Assembly: GCF_940670685.1 (NCBI RefSeq)
Contig: NZ_OW711693.1
Location: 1,736,001 to 1,800,000, forward strand
Reading direction: 5' to 3'
Source of the DNA: Anaeropeptidivorans aminofermentans
GTDB lineage: Bacteria > Bacillota > Clostridia > Lachnospirales > UBA5962
DNA: 64,000 bases
Shown here: piece after piece, positions 1,243-59,909 of the stretch
Numbering within the stretch: position 1 is the first letter of the stretch
Layout of the letters: each line of letters begins with the position of its first letter
Program-made: the position numbers and the translations under genes
Notes under the pieces: generated by a model
Told to the model about the DNA's origin: nothing
The model's input: only the letters and a program-made list of their open reading frames with translations
The model's database searches: none

Positions 1243-1704
1243 ATGAAATGTCCCTTTTGCGGCTCTATAGACTCGAAGGTTGTGGACTCCAGAGCCATGG
1301 AAGACGGCAAGGCCATAAGAAGAAGAAGGCAGTGTGAAAGCTGCGGCGAGAGGTTTACGACCTATGAAAGAATTGATATTATCCCTGTTGCTGTCATCAA
1401 AAGAAACGGAGAAAGAGAATCCTTTGATAGAAGTAAGCTTTTAAACGGTATCATAAAATCCTGCAATAAACGCCCAATTTCCATGGAGGAAATGGAAAAG
1501 ATAGCCGATTATGTAGAGGGCTCCGTTCTTAATTCTTTAAATAAGGAGATCGAGAGCAACAAAATCGGCGAAATGGTGATGGACAAGCTTAAAGAGGTGG
1601 ACGAGGTTGCATATGTCCGCTTTGCTTCTGTATATAAGAAATTTAAGGATATTGATACCTTTATGGAGGAGCTTTCAAAGCTCTTAAGAGAAAAAAATAA
1701 TTAA
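1243..1704 (+). CDS. nrdR: Transcriptional repressor NrdR
   Basis: A 153-residue protein of standard NrdR length. The N-terminal zinc ribbon is visible as CPFC (Cys3, Cys6) and CESC (Cys31, Cys34), with the basic stretch IRRRRQ between them. Residues ~49-139 form the ATP-cone domain starting [15 protein letters not shown]. NrdR senses ATP/dATP and represses ribonucleotide reductase genes by binding NrdR boxes. No nrd gene is in the window. Start ATG follows GGCAGGTGATAAA. The stop codon (1702-1704) lies within the left terminus of an inverted-repeat element, so any native terminator has been displaced or replaced by that element. Confidence 0.97.
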
Positions 1705-2117
1705 TTTAACGTGAATTCGACGAAGCCTTCCCCCTTGGTTTACCAAGGGAAAGCCCAGAGGACTTTTCACGTTATGAATATGTAATTAACAAACTTGAAA
1801 GGAAGTTTGTGATTATAAGAAAACGTTCACCTGAAAATGCTTTTACAGTTTTACTGTAAGCATTTTCAGGTTTCCTAAGTATAAATTCGCAGTGTTTTTC
1901 TGGAAATTTATACGAATGTAGTAAATTTAAAGTTAGTTTAAAGTTAGAGAGTAACAAAACCGTATATTCGTGAGGATTCAAAAATGTACTGTTTCCGAAG
2001 GAAATTCGTGTTTTTGAATCCGTAGTGAATAGGTTTTTGTTACTTCTTTATAAGAAATTTACTATAGTATCATAAATTTGATGGAATTTTCATTCTGTCG
2101 AACTCACATTAATTTAA
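1701..2117. mobile_element. MITE-like inverted-repeat element, family A, copy 1 (interrupted)
   Basis: The ends are imperfect inverted repeats of about 21 bp: the left begins TTAATTTAACGTGAATTCGA and the right end, reverse-complemented, reads TTAAATTAATGTGAGTTCGA. No coding capacity is seen. A second copy at 59745-59909 aligns over its whole length except for two extra blocks here. One block is about 1778-1878 and contains a hairpin (arms 1830-1848 and 1854-1870). The other is 1919-2064, a family B element. Without the two blocks this copy would be about 168 bp, against 165 bp for copy 2. It fills the whole nrdR-pyrB gap and ends just before the pyrB ribosome site. Confidence 0.75.
1919..2064 (+). 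mobile_element. MITE-like element, family B, subfamily I (nested in family A)
   Basis: Begins TAGTAAATTT and ends AAATTTACTA, flanked by TG on the left and TA on the right. The core holds CCGTATATTC and the block CGTTTCCGAAGGAAAT shape shared with 27561-27695, 35840-36075 and, in reverse, 19248-19378. It has no open reading frame of note. The uninterrupted target is visible at 59858-59859 in the second copy of the host element. Confidence 0.8.
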
Positions 2118-2130
2118 AAGGTGGTTTTTT

Positions 2131-3039
2131 ATGAAGCATTTAGTAGACATTAAGCAGCTTAGTAAAGAGGAAATAAAAGAGCTTATTTCCGTTTCCCAAA
2201 GCATAATAAAAAAACCTGAAAATTATTATGAAAAATGCAAGCATAAAAAACTTGCTACATTGTTTTACGAGCCAAGTACGAGAACGAGATTAAGCTTTGA
2301 AGCGGCAATGCTTGAGCTTGGCGGCTCCATTATAGGATTTTCTACGGCAGATTCAAGCTCGGCGACAAAAGGGGAGTCTGTTGCAGATACCATACGGATG
2401 GTCAGTGGCTATGCAGACATCTGTGCTATTCGCCATCCTAAAGAAGGATCGGCTCTTGTTGCATCCCAATTCTCAAAAATTCCTGTTATCAATGCGGGAG
2501 ACGGCGGTCACCAGCACCCGACTCAAACCCTTACGGATCTTTTTACTATTCATACTTATAAAAATTCTCTTGAAAACTTAACCGTCGGTCTTTGCGGAGA
2601 CCTTAAATTTGGAAGAACGGTCCATTCTCTGATTGAGTCCATGTGCGGCTATAAAAATAACCGTTTTATCCTTGTTTCTCCGGAGGAGCTTAAAATTCCA
2701 GATTATTTAAGAGAAATTCTCGTAAAAAACAATGTAGATTTTATTGAAACCACCGATTTTGAAAAAAGTATTTCGCAAATGGATATTATATATATGACAA
2801 GAGTGCAGAGAGAAAGATTCTTTAACGAAGAAGACTATATACGCCTTAAAGACAGATATATCCTCGATAAAGAAAAGCTTAGTTTAGCAAAAAAAGACTT
2901 ATCCATACTGCACCCCTTGCCAAGGGTAAATGAAATATCTGTAGATGTGGATAATGATGCAAGAGCACTGTATTTTGAGCAGGCAAGGCTCGGAAAATAT
3001 ATCAGAATGGCTCTCATAATGAAGCTTTTGGAGGTATAA
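2131..3039 (+). CDS. pyrB: Aspartate carbamoyltransferase catalytic subunit
   Basis: A 302-residue PyrB that condenses carbamoyl phosphate with L-aspartate in the second step of pyrimidine synthesis. The carbamoyl-phosphate loop STRTR is at residues 49-53, the mobile catalytic loop SSATKGES at about 77-84, and the conserved HPTQ at 129-132. ATG follows AAAAGGTGG. The regulatory subunit gene begins 2 bp after its stop, so the product should be the allosteric class B holoenzyme. No pyr attenuator or PyrR-binding leader is recognisable, because an inverted-repeat element occupies the upstream gap. That may have replaced the native control region. Confidence 0.97.
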
Positions 3040-3461: not shown

Positions 3462-3470
3462 AATCATTTA

Positions 3471-3597
3471 TAGTAAAATAGTTTAATTACAGTAATAAAA
3501 ATGATATATTTTGAATGGCTTAATATAAGCGTTTCTATTATATTAAGCCGTTTATGAAAAATAGGTTTTTGTTCCTACCTTAAAAGCTATTTTACTG
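3471..3597 (-). mobile_element. MITE-like element, family B, subfamily II (reverse copy)
   Basis: Flanked by TA on both sides. The ends are TAGTAAAATAG and CTATTTTACTG, diverged from the TAGTAAATTT consensus. The core, read on the minus strand, matches the subfamily II core of 5905-6030 and 52076-52200, with a hairpin formed by GGCTTAA-type arms. It has no coding capacity and lies between pyrI and its terminator. Confidence 0.65.
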
Positions 3598-3623
3598 TAT
3601 TAATATTAAAGTGAATATAACTT

Positions 3624-6196: not shown

Positions 6197-6953
6197 ATTA
6201 TGGGTCGTGACCCAGTTGAGCACGCAAAGCGTGCGAAATAATAACCACCCGCTATGCGGGTGCGCGGTGTTTGTTATACAAAAAAATCACCTTTCCGTTA
6301 TAATAAGGTTGTTCAAGCCAGATTATAACGAAAGGAAAGGTGATTTTCATGGCCAACAAGGCAAATAGTTTAGCCCACACCAAGTGGATGTGTAAGTACC
6401 ACATAGTGTTCACTCCTAAGTATAGGAGAAAAATTATTTATAATCAATACAAAGAAAGTGTCAGAGATATTTTAAAACAACTTTGCAGATACAAAGGAGT
6501 AGAGATTATCGAAGGGCATCTCATGCGCGACCATGTACACATGCTGGTCAGCATACCACCGAAGCTGAGTGTTTCTCAGTTTATGGGATATTTAAAAGGG
6601 AAAAGTGCACTCATAATTTTTGACCAGCACGCAAACTTAAAGTATAAGTTCGGGAATAGACACTTTTGGGCAGAAGGTTATTACGTGAGCACAGTAGGAC
6701 TGAATGAGGCAACCATAAAGAAATACATTCAGGAACAAGAAAACTATGATATAGCGATGGATAAACTGAGTGTGAAAGAGTATGAGGACCCCTTCAAGGG
6801 GTAGCCAGTATTACGGACACCCTTTTAGGGGTGGCGACGAGTCAAGGGCAATAAAGGCTTGAACGAAAGTGAAAGCCAGCGTCTTTAGGCGCTGGCCGGT
6901 AACAGCCCCTTATAGGGGCGAGCAAACCACCCGTTTGACGGGTGGTCATGATT
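6197..6953 (+). mobile_element. IS200-type insertion sequence (IS200/IS605 family), copy 1
   Basis: The element contains only tnpA, as in the IS200 group. The left subterminal hairpins (ACCACCCGCTATGCGGGTG and GCACGCAAAGCGTGC shapes at 6220-6265) and the right hairpin (ACCACCCG...CGGGTGGT at 6926-6945) fit the imperfect palindromes that single-strand transposases recognise. Another hairpin CCAGCGTC/GGCGCTGG lies at 6877-6895. Exact tips are uncertain because these elements have no inverted repeats and make no target duplication. Confidence 0.75.
6349..6804 (+). CDS. tnpA: IS200/IS605 family transposase TnpA (Y1 HUH)
   Basis: A 151-residue Y1 transposase. The HUH motif is DHVHML with His62 and His64, and the catalytic tyrosine is Tyr126 in IKKYIQEQ, at the spacing usual for the family. 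It cuts and joins single-stranded DNA at the element's hairpin ends. ATG 6349 is preferred over GTG 6340 because AAAGG lies just before it and copy 3 starts at the matching codon. The gene is intact and full length, so it may be active. It is closely similar to the copy at 13520-13975 and more distant from 12908-13387. Confidence 0.95.
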   Translation: MANKANSLAHTKWMCKYHIVFTPKYRRKIIYNQYKESVRDILKQLCRYKGVEIIEGHLMRDHVHMLVSIPPKLSVSQFMGYLKGKSALIIFDQHANLKYKFGNRHFWAEGYYVSTVGLNEATIKKYIQEQENYDIAMDKLSVKEYEDPFKG

Positions 6954-8769: not shown

Positions 8770-9115
8770 GGGGATGTACTGGTTTCGACGGGGATTTTGA
8801 AAGCAAGAATAGCCATCCGCAGAGGCAGCTGCGTAAAAATGCCAACCTTTAAAAATTAATCGACAACGATAATTTAGTTTTAGCCGCCGCGTAAGGTGGC
8901 TCGTCAGCCTTAGGTCTCCTGTTGCTTAAGGGTCTGGCGCCGACAGACAGGGAACTTTTTTATGTAAGCTTTGCCATAAAAAAAGAAACCATGAAGCTAC
9001 CGGATTGCGGATTTGTTAGTTTTGGCCGCATGAAGGGAAACCTATAAACTAACTGTGATGGGAGAAGTTTTTGCCGACAGGTTTTCGGACAGGGGTTCGA
9101 TTCCCCTCATCTCCA
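8770..9115 (+). ncRNA. ssrA: Transfer-messenger RNA (tmRNA)
   Basis: The 5' end GGGGATGTACTGGTTTCGAC and the 3' end GGTTCGATTCCCCTCATCTCC are the tRNA-like ends of tmRNA. GGGGATG pairs with CATCTCC to form the acceptor stem, and the TTCGATTCC T-loop is intact. CCA is not encoded (A at 9115, then TTT). The tag frame ends with the codons for DNLVLAAA at 8868-8891 and TAA at 8892-8894. Read back, the tag is likely IDNDNLVLAAA, starting at 8859; the resume codon is inferred. tmRNA frees ribosomes stalled on broken mRNAs together with SmpB, which is not in the window. Confidence 0.97.
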
Positions 9116-9167
9116 TTTGTTTTATCCGCGTCCATAAGGATAGATAAGTTTTATTGATGACAATTGG

Positions 9168-12792: not shown

Positions 12793-13370
12793 AACCACCT
12801 GCTATGCAGGTGGAGGGAAAATGCTTTAGCTTCAAGAAAAATACCCCCTGTGATAAAATAAAGTGGGTTTGCCAACCACAATTATTAGATCATAGGAGGT
12901 GTGTCCGATGGACAAAAATAGTTTATCACATACAACCTGGGAATGTAAATATCATCTGGTATTTGCTCCAAAGTATCGAAGACAAATAATTTATGGAAGA
13001 TTAAAGGCGGATATAGGAAAGATACTTAGAGAATTATGTGAAAGAAAAGGTATAGAAATAATAGAAGCAGAATGTTGTAGTGACCATATACACATGTTAG
13101 TCAGAATACCACCTAAATATAGTGTATCAGAGATAATGGGATATTTGAAAGGAAAGAGTTCTTTAATAATATTCGATAGACATGCAAATTTAAAATATAA
13201 ATATGGGAATAGACATTTCTGGTGTAGAGGATATTATGTTGATACAGTAGGTAAAAATGCGAAAAAAATAGAAGAATACATTAGAAATCAAATACAAGAA
13301 GATAAAGTAGCAGATCAAATTTCATTGTTAGAATATATTGACCCGTTTACGGGGGAGCCAGTGAAAGGAA
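12793..13370 (+). mobile_element. IS200-type insertion sequence, copy 2 (right end lost)
   Basis: The left subterminal hairpin is ACCACCTGC/GCAGGTGG at 12794-12811. The transposase gene runs into the right end of copy 3 (from about 13368), which lies in opposite orientation, so the native right end appears truncated or overwritten. Confidence 0.6.
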
Positions 13371-13387
13371 ATCATGACCACCCTTAA
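12908..13387 (+). CDS. tnpA: IS200/IS605 family transposase TnpA, altered C-terminus
   Basis: A 159-residue Y1 HUH transposase with DHIHML and the tyrosine in IEEYIRNQ, so the catalytic parts are intact. It is clearly more diverged from copies 1 and 3 than they are from each other. Start ATG 12908 follows AGGAGGT. The usual end DPF(K/R)G-stop is read through here as DPFTGEPVKGNHDHP. The last codons come from the right terminus of the neighbouring inverted element, showing that copy 3 arrived later or that the ends recombined. It may still code for active enzyme but has probably lost its own right end. Confidence 0.88.
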   Translation: MDKNSLSHTTWECKYHLVFAPKYRRQIIYGRLKADIGKILRELCERKGIEIIEAECCSDHIHMLVRIPPKYSVSEIMGYLKGKSSLIIFDRHANLKYKYGNRHFWCRGYYVDTVGKNAKKIEEYIRNQIQEDKVADQISLLEYIDPFTGEPVKGNHDHP

Positions 13388-14125
13388 AAGGGTGGTTTGA
13401 GCTAGGCCTGTAAGGCCTTGTTACCGGCCAGCATCTCAAGATGCTGGCTTTCACTTAAGTTCAAGCCCCTATGCCCTTGCCTCTTTTGCTTAGCCCTTAA
13501 GGGCTATTTGTATTACCAGCTAACCCCTAAAGGGGTCTTCATATTCTTTGACACTCAGCTTATCTAGAGCAATGTCATGTTGCTCTTGTTCTCTGATGTA
13601 TTTCTGGATGGTAGCTTCGTTCAGTCCTACCGTACTGACATAATAGCCAACTGACCAAAAATGCCGATTCCCAAACTTGTACTTCAAATTTGCATGTCGA
13701 TCGAAAATCATCAGGGCACTTTTCCCTTTTAGATATCCCATAAAACTTGAAATGCTGATCTTTGGTGGAATGCTCACTAACATATGCACATGATCTGGCA
13801 TCAGGTGACCTTCGATCAGTTCTACGCCTTTGTAGCCGCATAACTCTCGAAGAATTTTCCCAATCGACTCTCGATATTGATTGAAGATGATTTTACGTCT
13901 ATACTTTGGAGTGAACACAATGTGATATTTGCACATCCACTTTGTGTGGGACAAACTATTATGTTGGTTTGCCATTGAAACACCTTTCCTTTCTGCATAG
14001 TGGCTTGAACACTCACTATTCTATTGGAAAGGTGTTTCTTGTGGTAGAACCTTTTGGTCCTCTACCCGCATAGCGGGTAGTTTTTTGTTTCGCACGCTAT
14101 GCGAGCTCAACTGGCTTAAGCCATA
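13368..14125 (-). mobile_element. IS200-type insertion sequence, copy 3
   Basis: Reads on the minus strand. The left subterminal hairpins lie at 14065-14105 (CTACCCGC/GCGGGTAG and CGCACGC/GCGAG). The right-end hairpins are at 13374-13395 (ACCACCC/GGGTGGT) and 13428-13450. The right end matches copy 1 in order and spacing. It abuts copy 2 tail to tail. Tips are approximate. Confidence 0.7.
13520..13975 (-). CDS. tnpA: IS200/IS605 family transposase TnpA (Y1 HUH)
   Basis: A 151-residue intact transposase, closely similar to the copy at 6349-6804 and starting with the same MANQHNSLSHTKWMCKYH-type N-terminus. The HUH motif DHVHML (His62, His64) and the tyrosine in IQKYIREQ (Tyr126) are present. 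The ribosome site is GAAAGGTGTTTCA before the ATG. No tnpB accompanies it. Two near-identical intact copies within 8 kb suggest recent activity of this element in the genome. Confidence 0.95.
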   Translation of the reverse strand: MANQHNSLSHTKWMCKYHIVFTPKYRRKIIFNQYRESIGKILRELCGYKGVELIEGHLMPDHVHMLVSIPPKISISSFMGYLKGKSALMIFDRHANLKYKFGNRHFWSVGYYVSTVGLNEATIQKYIREQEQHDIALDKLSVKEYEDPFRG

Positions 14126-18216: not shown

Positions 18217-18287
18217 AAAAGCATGGTAATACAAAGATTTGTAAAAATCTAAAAGAAGTTTTCTATCCTCCCTCCGAGAATTAACCT

Positions 18288-18450
18288 TGAGCAAAAAGGC
18301 AGGTTTCCTGACTCATAATCTTCCTCGTCTTTTGTCTTCCCGGACAGAATGCCCAGTGACTTTTTAAAAGACTCGTCATATCCTACAGTAGCGGGGGCTG
18401 TTGTGCTTTTCACATTCCCTATTATCCGGCAAAAAGCCGGCACCTCATTG
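18288..18450 (-). promoter_or_regulatory. Cobalamin (AdoCbl) riboswitch
   Basis: Read on the minus strand the hallmarks come in the right order: GAGGTGCCGGC (18437-18447), AATAGGGAA, CAGCCCCCGCTACTGTA, CACTGGG, CCGGGAAGA, and the closing GAGTCAGGAAACCTGCC. These are the conserved core and B12-box elements of the cobalamin riboswitch. Binding of coenzyme B12 is expected to favour the terminator at 18186-18216 and shut off the transporter operon. Confidence 0.93.
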
Positions 18451-18471
18451 CTGAATATTCAATTTGCTTAA

Positions 18472-19135: not shown

Positions 19136-19247
19136 ATCCTGCCTCTTATAAATATGTACTTGTATTATTGTAAAACATCGATAAAAATAATGTACTCAAA
19201 CGCTTATAACTATGATTGCACAAAGAAAAACAGCTGTCAATTAAATA

Positions 19248-19378
19248 TAGTAAATTTCTTATAGAAGTAAAAAATTGGTTCACTATAGACTCAAAAATAC
19301 GGATTTCCTTCGGAAACAGTACATTTATTGGCTTAAGTGAATATACGGTTTTGTCACTGTTTAATTTGAAATTTATGA
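19248..19378 (-). mobile_element. MITE-like element, family B, subfamily I (reverse copy)
   Basis: Begins TAGTAAATTT and ends AAATTTATGA, with TA on both sides. The core TTTCCTTCGGAAA and AATATACGGTTTTG are the reverse complement of the core at 1919-2064. The remainder of 19136-19669 has no gene; a small hairpin with a T-run (19452-19476) lies between. Confidence 0.8.
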
Positions 19379-27222: not shown

Positions 27223-27560
27223 TTTATACTGAGCGAACTTAAAAATATTACAAGCACAAGCCTATAAATAGTTTTTGGGTTTGTTAACGGTATAGTCAAG
27301 TTGCTTTATGGCTTTGTAGATATTTGCTTTAAAGGGTATTCAATCAGAGAAAAGCAATAAGAATTTTTGCTCTCAAAATACTATAAGATTAAAATGACGT
27401 TTACGGCATTTTGCTTCAGTTAGGTTTTTTGTTCCGTTTTGCTGCTATTTCATACTTATTCGTGGATATTCATGCTTTAAGCGAAGTTTCATAATTGAAA
27501 TTTCGCTTTTTATTCATACAAAAAGGTACTTTACTTAGAGAACAAGGCAGATATGGTTTA
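27223..27560. other. AT-rich gap, no gene seen
   Basis: Between yhbY and a family B element I see no gene, strong hairpin or RNA motif. The DNA on the far side (27698-27995), before zapA, is likewise without a convincing gene. Confidence 0.4.
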
Positions 27561-27695
27561 TAGTAAATTTAAAGTTAAATAGTAGCAAAACCGTATATTC
27601 ACGTAGGCTTAAAAAAGTACCGTTTCCGAAGGAAATCCGTGTTTTTGAGCCTGCAGGGAATAGGCTTTTGCTACTTCTTCATAATAAATTTACTA
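27561..27695 (+). mobile_element. MITE-like element, family B, subfamily I
   Basis: Begins TAGTAAATTT, ends AAATTTACTA, TA on both sides (27559-27560, 27696-27697). The core CCGTATATTCACG, CGTTTCCGAAGGAAATCCG and the hairpin around GGCTTAAAA/TTTTTGAGCC match the copies at 1919 and 35840. Confidence 0.88.
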
Positions 27696-27995
27696 TAAAG
27701 ATGCCTTATGAATTTAGAAAGCTCCGATTTGGATTGGGCCGCAATTCAAATTTATTGTTAAAAATATTAATAATTATTGATTTTTTAATTAAGAATAGCC
27801 GCAAATATTTGATTAAGCCTTATATTATGATATACTGCAATAGAGACTATGTGAAGAAAGCATAGGCCATATTGATTTAACTTTAAAAATCTTTGTTTTA
27901 AAGTTAAATCCTGTATTTCATATGTTTTTATTAAAATAACTTGTGTATTTTCAAGTTAATTTAATATATTTGATAGATTTTATTAGGAGGGGCAT

Positions 27996-35761: not shown

Positions 35762-35839
35762 GTTTTTGCCTCCTTTACTTGTTGTTTGGCTGCAAACGAA
35801 AGATATATATTCATTTTTAAAAGAAGGTATCAAACTCAT

Positions 35840-36075
35840 AGTAAATTTAAAGTGAAACCGTAACAAAACCGTATATTCACGAGGATTTAAAAATATACCG
35901 TTTCCGAAGGAAATCCGTATTTTTATACTACGCGAATTTGGAAAAGGATACAGGCGTAAGCCTGCAAATTTTTTTAAGTGAGGGATTTCTTATCGTTATC
36001 AAACTTGTTTTTTATTTGGTAACGATGAATCCCTAGTGAATCGGTTTTTGTTCCTTCTTTATAAGAAATTTACTA
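35840..36075 (+). mobile_element. MITE-like element, family B, subfamily I, with ~110-bp internal insert
   Basis: Ends TAGTAAATTT and AAATTTACTA, flanks CA and TA. Both halves align with 1919-2064 and 27561-27695. Between about 35928 and 36036 lies extra DNA with its own hairpins: CAGGC/GCCTG near 35953, and a larger one with GGGATT and AATCCC at its base (about 35982-36034). The remaining gap up to 36355 is AT-rich without a gene. Confidence 0.8.
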
Positions 36076-36355
36076 TATTTTAAGTTTATCTACTATTTCT
36101 TCGAATGCATTACATTATACTATATTAATTTTTAAAAAAAGTGTGAAGGCATGTAACAAATAATTATAGGTTTGGCCCATAAATATGAGATAATTATAAA
36201 CTTATAAAAATTCATCAGTCTTTTTTTATAAGTTCACGTAAATATTTATATAAAACCAAATAGAGTTACAAAAAAATATTCCTATATTTAAATATTATAA
36301 ATTTAAATTATATTTGGTTAAAACAGTAGAAAATTATATAGGCGGGAGGCTTAAT

Positions 36356-59744: not shown

Positions 59745-59909
59745 TAATTTAACGTGAGTTGGCGAAATCGGACCCTTTGGTTTACCAAAGGAAAGTCCGA
59801 AGAACTTTTCACGTTATGAGTATAAATTTGCAGTTTTTTTCTGAAAATTTGTACGAATAGTGTCATAAGTTCGATGAGAATTTTATTCCATCGAACTTAT
59901 ATTAATTTA
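59745..59909. mobile_element. MITE-like inverted-repeat element, family A, copy 2 (uninterrupted)
   Basis: The left end TAATTTAACGTGAGTT and the right end (reverse complement TAAATTAATATAAGTT) match each other and the ends of 1701-2117. A hairpin CCCTTTGGTTTACCAAAGG stands near the left end. At 59858-59859 lies the TA that in copy 1 is occupied by a family B element. No coding capacity. Confidence 0.78.

Follow-up and report, generated by a model that had tools for sequence, protein, structure and literature searches.

In the single-contig genome of Anaeropeptidivorans aminofermentans (3,757,330 bp), we analysed a stretch of 64,000 nucleotides (positions 1736001-1800000; hereafter the window), in which the genes nrdR (1243-1704) and pyrB (2131-3039) flank a nest of three short repeats. 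The outermost of these, A1, is a copy of a repeat which we call family A, and it hosts two further elements, B and C; coordinates given without a genome or locus label are those of the window, on the forward strand unless noted otherwise. A1 spans 1709-2109 (401 bp) between identical 7-bp target duplications TAATTTA, the left of which (1702-1708) overlaps the nrdR stop codon, while the right one lies at 2110-2116. It opens with a piece containing the cloverleaf half of the family (1709-1780, delimited by alignment with 25 other copies), which ends with TA. Then follow element C (1781-1879; 99 bp, two hairpins) with TA on either side (1779-1780 and 1880-1881), a middle piece (1880-1918) in which the left TA of B has become TG (1917-1918), element B itself (1919-2064; 146 bp), a long imperfect hairpin with the ends TAGTAAATTT..AAATTTACTA, and a last piece (2065-2109) that starts with the TA to the right of B. 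Directly before B, A1 reads ACGAATG, and directly after it this TA (2065-2066).

The layers can be separated with the help of a second, uninterrupted copy of the family in the same window, A2 (59752-59902; 151 bp), which lies between TAATTTA duplications at 59745-59751 and 59903-59909. A search within the window aligned A1 and A2 in three matching pieces (E 2e-15, 2e-10 and 2e-8). Together with the shared 7-bp repeats, this bears out an earlier, sequence-only reading in which 1701-2117 and 59745-59909 were taken for copies of one family. At the site of B, A2 reads ACGAATAGTGTCATAA, and the block 1919-2064 is placed in A1 exactly at the TA which A2 has empty (59858-59859), again as proposed in that reading. 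Its picture of a nest of two elements was correct for A and B but missed the third, as the block 1781-1879 of element C is also present in A1 and missing from A2. When C and B are subtracted with one TA each, 401 - (99+2) - (146+2) = 152 bp of A1 remain, compared with the 151 bp of A2. The proposed order of events, A and then B, holds as well, because B is nested inside A. Neither A1 nor A2 contains a frame of at least 100 codons, and their orientation to genes differs: A1 is co-directed with its neighbours and A2 opposed to its own. In G005, the closest relative for which both genes could be inspected, nrdR and pyrB overlap, with no sequence between them; nrdR was found in the fetched flank of two of the 92 pyrB loci examined, those of the source genome and of G005, and this tight junction is thus known from one relative. 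Compared by PyrB, the closest named records were assemblies of uncultured Clostridia, with an identity of at most 71%. The stretch 1600-2200 showed no promoter or terminator above chance level, and the nest block, folded as single-stranded DNA, folds far better than its shuffles (z -9.55).

Family A has the termini ACGTGAGTTCGA..TCGAACTCACGT (ACGTGAG..CTCACGT), and its uninterrupted two-ended copies measure 148-180 bp, shortened ones aside. A covariance model of the family gave 36 matches in the source genome, merged to 32 distinct places; this is a lower bound, as 65 of 1561 candidates were scored. The 26 copies that we aligned were chosen from earlier matches, leaving out the overlapping loci L039 and L041 and four places found by the covariance model only (loci and genomes bear our own L and G numbers). 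The duplication made by family A itself is 7 bp long and not TA; it is often TAATTTA, and also TAAAATA, TAGCTTA and TAATATA. Identical pairs were present in nine of 21 copies tested in the source genome, and when the right 7-mers were shuffled among the copies, a fraction of 5e-5 of 20,000 trials was as good; the 21 exclude L040, L052 and L054, in which the end placed by script has 6-7 mismatches to the end motif. In four other genomes, the duplication was perfect in 8 of 23 copies and had at most one mismatch in 14 of 23 (0 of 20,000 shuffles as low). Both end motifs were needed for a copy to enter this set, which does not include copies with worn ends (e.g. L214 and L217). The motifs also fit a 41-bp hairpin inside the element; only rows of 145-180 bp were retained, and G028:C213 was added by hand. 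One of the 23, G063:C3, has unlike flanks and is probably no true copy; it stays in the count. Perfect 7-bp pairs occur in the source genome, G024, G028 and G041.

Outside the source genome, the covariance model yielded 4 matches in G024 and 18 matches in G028. For the six genomes that share the bacterial family of the source, no match was obtained at E 0.001; of 30 relatives considered, none belonged to its genus. Of 392 genomes of the order searched with a second model, 7 (source included) contain A, and they are distributed over four families and six genera; these numbers are lower bounds, obtained with stricter filters and at most 7 candidates scored per genome. There was no match for a G028 copy in plasmids, for A2 in phages or for a left-half pattern in viral_contigs. 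Several single copies had unusual forms. L054 (G000:C1:1362386) is a cloverleaf-only copy with TAAATTA on either side (read by eye), and L222 (G028:C188:182-347) is directly followed by the apparent start of a second copy in tandem. Two loci of G063, L265 and L253, are short palindromes made of the right end of A and its mirror image; they lie near gene ends and might be terminators.

Element B belongs to a family with the ends TATAGTAAATTT. The site which it occupies in A1 is covered by 25 of the 26 aligned copies of A, 23 of which are uninterrupted there. Apart from A1, the only occupied one is L056 (G000:C1:172739-172968), where a 43-bp B-type palindrome, TAGTAAAATAG..CTATTTTACTA, is inserted with both TAs intact. 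Presence of B in most copies of A had been named in the sequence-only reading as the outcome that would speak against nesting; this B was found in A1 only. Since 59745-59909 contains 14 TAs, a repeated hit on the same TA by chance is not very rare. Empty sites were also found elsewhere. For 13 of the 63 full-length copies of B in 608 kb, one or more related empty sites could be recorded, the criterion being that the flanks, joined with one TA, gave a match spanning the junction at E up to 0.001. In nine of these 13, at least one empty copy was gap-free within 5 bases of the junction, and TA stands at the junction in 45 of the 61 empty copies that align in this way. In the remaining four, the end was apparently misplaced by the model (A1 and g3222086) or gaps of 1-3 bases were present (two copies); some of the alignments are short and AT-rich, and the weaker ones are unreliable singly. 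With L056 and the nine further copies, the earlier proposal that B transposes with duplication of TA gained support. The hosts of B copies include A, C, a D-type element (see below) and several unnamed repeats, and target preference beyond TA amounted to an AT bias only (29 copies).

B and its sister family D, which has B-like ends (..AGTAAAATAG), are abundant. In 400 kb (20 evenly placed stretches, fragments merged) we counted 40 copies of B and 27 of D, from which roughly 600 copies of both together can be estimated genome-wide. Pieces from these stretches and the window were intergenic in 46 of 50 cases for B and 31 of 32 for D, where frames of at least 120 codons cover 73% of the sequence. 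Within the window, further B copies are located at 27559-27697 and, on the reverse strand, at 19247-19375, a longer B-type copy with a middle unlike standard B at 35838-36077, and a D copy on the reverse strand at 3469-3599. Long B forms of about 330-340 bp with a shared extra middle were seen in G000 (L102, 18125-18462; L108, 4508-4841; L092, 5758-6093) and are possibly nearer to the parent of B. A candidate for an autonomous B, two B ends lying 1.6 kb apart and enclosing a 419-codon frame (in the 608 kb), was rejected, each end being a separate B match. Read as a single long hairpin, B shows covariation (10 of 47 pairs; 42 cells, compared with 15.1 in shuffles). With its TA duplication, B appears most like the miniature inverted-repeat transposable elements (MITEs) of the IS630/Tc1-mariner group; it behaves like one, which is less than a claim that it is one, and its mover would have been an IS630-like enzyme. 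The accessible part of one report describes RUP as using TA sites and as thought to be moved by IS630-Spn1 (PMC2229807). With the TA-flanked bacterial MITEs, as far as they are described there, B shares AT-richness, a terminal TA, hairpin formation and target duplication (PMC2229807); it differs from them in that a search of 38 other genomes revealed no clear copy. An exact pattern of the B core, with N at variable places, had no match in genome_contigs or viral_contigs, from which records of the source genome or near ones are possibly left out.

Element C occurs at the same site in A1 and in a second copy of A that has lost its right end (L002, G000:C1:547842-548056), and it is missing from the other 24 aligned copies. 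This sharing indicates either that a copy of A was duplicated with C already inside it or that C was inserted before the two copies split. C probably entered before B. It was also found outside A, namely inside D-type elements and in L008 (G000:C1:2857650-2857787), where a copy of B is inserted within a hairpin of C. Because the junction of C in D is ambiguous, we claim no general TA rule for it. The age order of A and B had also been sought in divergence, an approach which was dropped: selected best hits of B gave a mean identity of 0.85 (19 copies) against 0.75 for A (18 copies), and unselected B gave 0.73 (27 copies), with 0.80 for D (16 copies). Divergence within families thus offers no independent support for A before B.

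As to the mover of family A, ends of IS982 elements begin with AC, and the IS982 family duplicates 3-9 bp (ISfinder). IS982 was therefore our guess from the 7-bp duplication and the AC..GT ends of A, and it was afterwards tested by searches with PF13612. Among 13 genomes, including the seven carriers of A, a single one, the carrier G024, had a match. Among 392 genomes, 38 had a match, and strong IS982-type genes were present in three of them (G295, G258 and G024). G295 harbours a complete IS982-family element of 1,095 bp with a perfect 7-bp duplication TATTATA on either side. Its termini are ACGTGAGTTCGATA and TGTCGAACTCACGT, the far end read inwards being ACGTGAGTTCGACA, and its transposase is an open frame of 295 aa (NF033520 transpos_IS982, E 2e-75; PF13612, E 2.9e-69). 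The IS982-type gene of G024 is frameshifted and is preceded, some 100 bp before its likely start, by ACGTGAGTTCGACG; G258 contains a third gene of this type with similar ends. Ends like ACGTGAGTTCGA thus lie beside the IS982-type genes of all three genomes, in G024 at the left side, the only end seen there. No A-type ends were found beside the five lower-scoring PF13612 loci that we examined (L308-L312, out of the 27 loci L308-L334). The element of G295 and family A share ACGTGAGTTCGA ends and an AT-rich 7-bp duplication, and differ in the open transposase gene, which the former alone possesses. From these ends and duplications, A is most likely an IS982-type MITE, a gene-less relative of the insertion sequences of G295, G258 and G024, and an IS982 transposase was presumably once active in the source genome.

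Taken together, the nest very probably consists of three non-autonomous miniature transposons, an IS982-type A that hosts C and the TA-duplicating B. The sequences directly show the nest itself, the duplications of either kind, the empty counterparts of B sites and, elsewhere in the order, an intact IS982 element with A-type ends. According to the history that we propose, A (about 150-180 bp, gene-less) would have been copied by an IS982-family transposase making a 7-bp AT-rich duplication, and one copy would have landed beside the nrdR stop codon, upstream of pyrB. C would have been inserted at a TA within a copy of A, before or during multiplication of that lineage of A, an early entry suggested by the two A copies that hold C at the same site, and B would later have entered another TA of A1. 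It might be objected that nothing was ever nested, B and C being original parts of A which most copies have deleted, and some copies of A do carry deletions (L054, L040 and L038). We consider this hardly conceivable: B and C are also found outside A, nine further B copies have flanks that match empty copies of other repeats, and it is not credible that 23 of 25 copies should each have lost exactly the same 146 bp along with one TA. For C, its two hairpins might alternatively mark an IS200/IS605-type palindrome-associated element, mobilised by single-strand transposases for which the window itself would provide the genes: three of its frames (6340-6804, 12899-13387 and 13520-13975) resemble IS200-type TnpA genes by eye. 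Such an origin is improbable, as the surroundings of these genes are unlike C, and C in A1 has TA on either side, whereas IS200/IS605 palindrome elements make no target duplication and share their ends with a TnpA element. No TnpA-bearing element with C hairpins at its ends was seen, and no genome-wide search for one was made. The hairpins that do lie beside the three frames are unrelated to A, B and C. Several observations weigh against the history of three nested transposons. Twelve of the 21 duplications of A in the source genome are imperfect, and the search for empty-site pairs of A inside other repeats gave none in the sequence covered. The duplication around B in A1 is half intact, its left TA having become TG, and 16 of the 61 gap-free empty copies lack TA. 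The source genome has no match to PF13358 (IS630) and none to PF13612, the latter being matched in only one of the seven carriers of A, and neither G295 nor G258 is among the seven genomes in which A was found. The 7-mers flanking the element of G258 (AATAATA and TAATTAA) are unlike, so that of the three IS982-type loci a duplication was seen in G295 alone. The missing parent gene is compatible with a relic MITE, but it lowers any claim of present activity.

Another question is whether A is primarily a structured RNA or single-stranded DNA element which sits on IS982-type ends and whose interior is kept for function. Over 22 copies from three genomes, A folds into a cloverleaf, made of the stem ACGTGA:TCACGT with three hairpins, and, after it, two more hairpins. 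In this model, which was written on one of the aligned copies, 88.1% of cells pair and 23 of 44 pairs have changed on both sides; compensated cells numbered 100 against 37.5 in shuffles, a value that none of 500 shuffles reached. No comparable excess was present where the left end of A pairs with the right. In eight aligned copies from G028, the left stem reads ACCTGA/ATCTGA against TCAGGT/TCAGAT, changed on both sides, while the right end CTCACGT is kept in six of the eight, and a G028 copy folds far better than its shuffles both as DNA (z -11.9) and as RNA (z -9.7). All this would suit a selected structure. The cells, however, count sequences and not events, and as the eight G028 copies are alike, the independent changes are fewer. 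Furthermore, correction of one arm by template switching can yield paired changes without selection, and copies resembling corrected palindromes were indeed seen (L038, L040, L041 and copies in G063). Orientation to genes is not fixed, as exemplified by A1 and A2, and no Rfam family reaches its gathering threshold for A. We therefore regard a primarily structural nature of A as rather unlikely. The covariation of both A and B may reflect selection on a single strand, RNA or DNA, or copying of one arm onto the other. Only tentatively can both views be merged, with A as a structured nucleic acid moved by IS982, whose cloverleaf and two hairpins would be maintained by selection, either as RNA or as single-stranded DNA required for transposition or tolerance, and which would have spread between families of Clostridia and outlasted the transposase in most hosts.

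Nested MITEs are already known, and the present case is an unusually clear but basically ordinary one. Compared with the pneumococcal repeats RUP, BOX and SPRITE, as presented in the accessible parts of two reports (PMC3049150; PMC2229807), A, B and C have other sequences and other hosts, and their layers are exactly separable, with empty sites kept elsewhere in the genome. The MITE derived from IS982 in the endosymbiont Cardinium, so far as the available part of its description goes (PMC9769881), resembles A in forming short gene-less copies with IS982-family ends. It differs in that its parent IS982 resides in the same genome, whereas the likely parent of A was found only in other genomes of the order, and in that A has a covarying cloverleaf and occurs in several families. 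Less usual are the exact nest of three elements, a structured MITE present in four families, and a likely parent insertion sequence in other genomes only. No report of families A or B was found in the open literature searched with general terms. As for other features, the window also holds a transfer-messenger RNA (tmRNA; 8770-9118) and a cobalamin riboswitch (18281-18462), both identified with Rfam.

This one locus allows an exact separation of three gene-less elements obeying two different target rules (7 bp and TA), and the same genome retains empty sites. An orphan repeat family could moreover be tied to its likely parent insertion sequence through other genomes, a route that might also serve for other orphan repeats. 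If the cloverleaf of family A is under selection, a conserved structure would here be carried by a transposon from one bacterial family to another.
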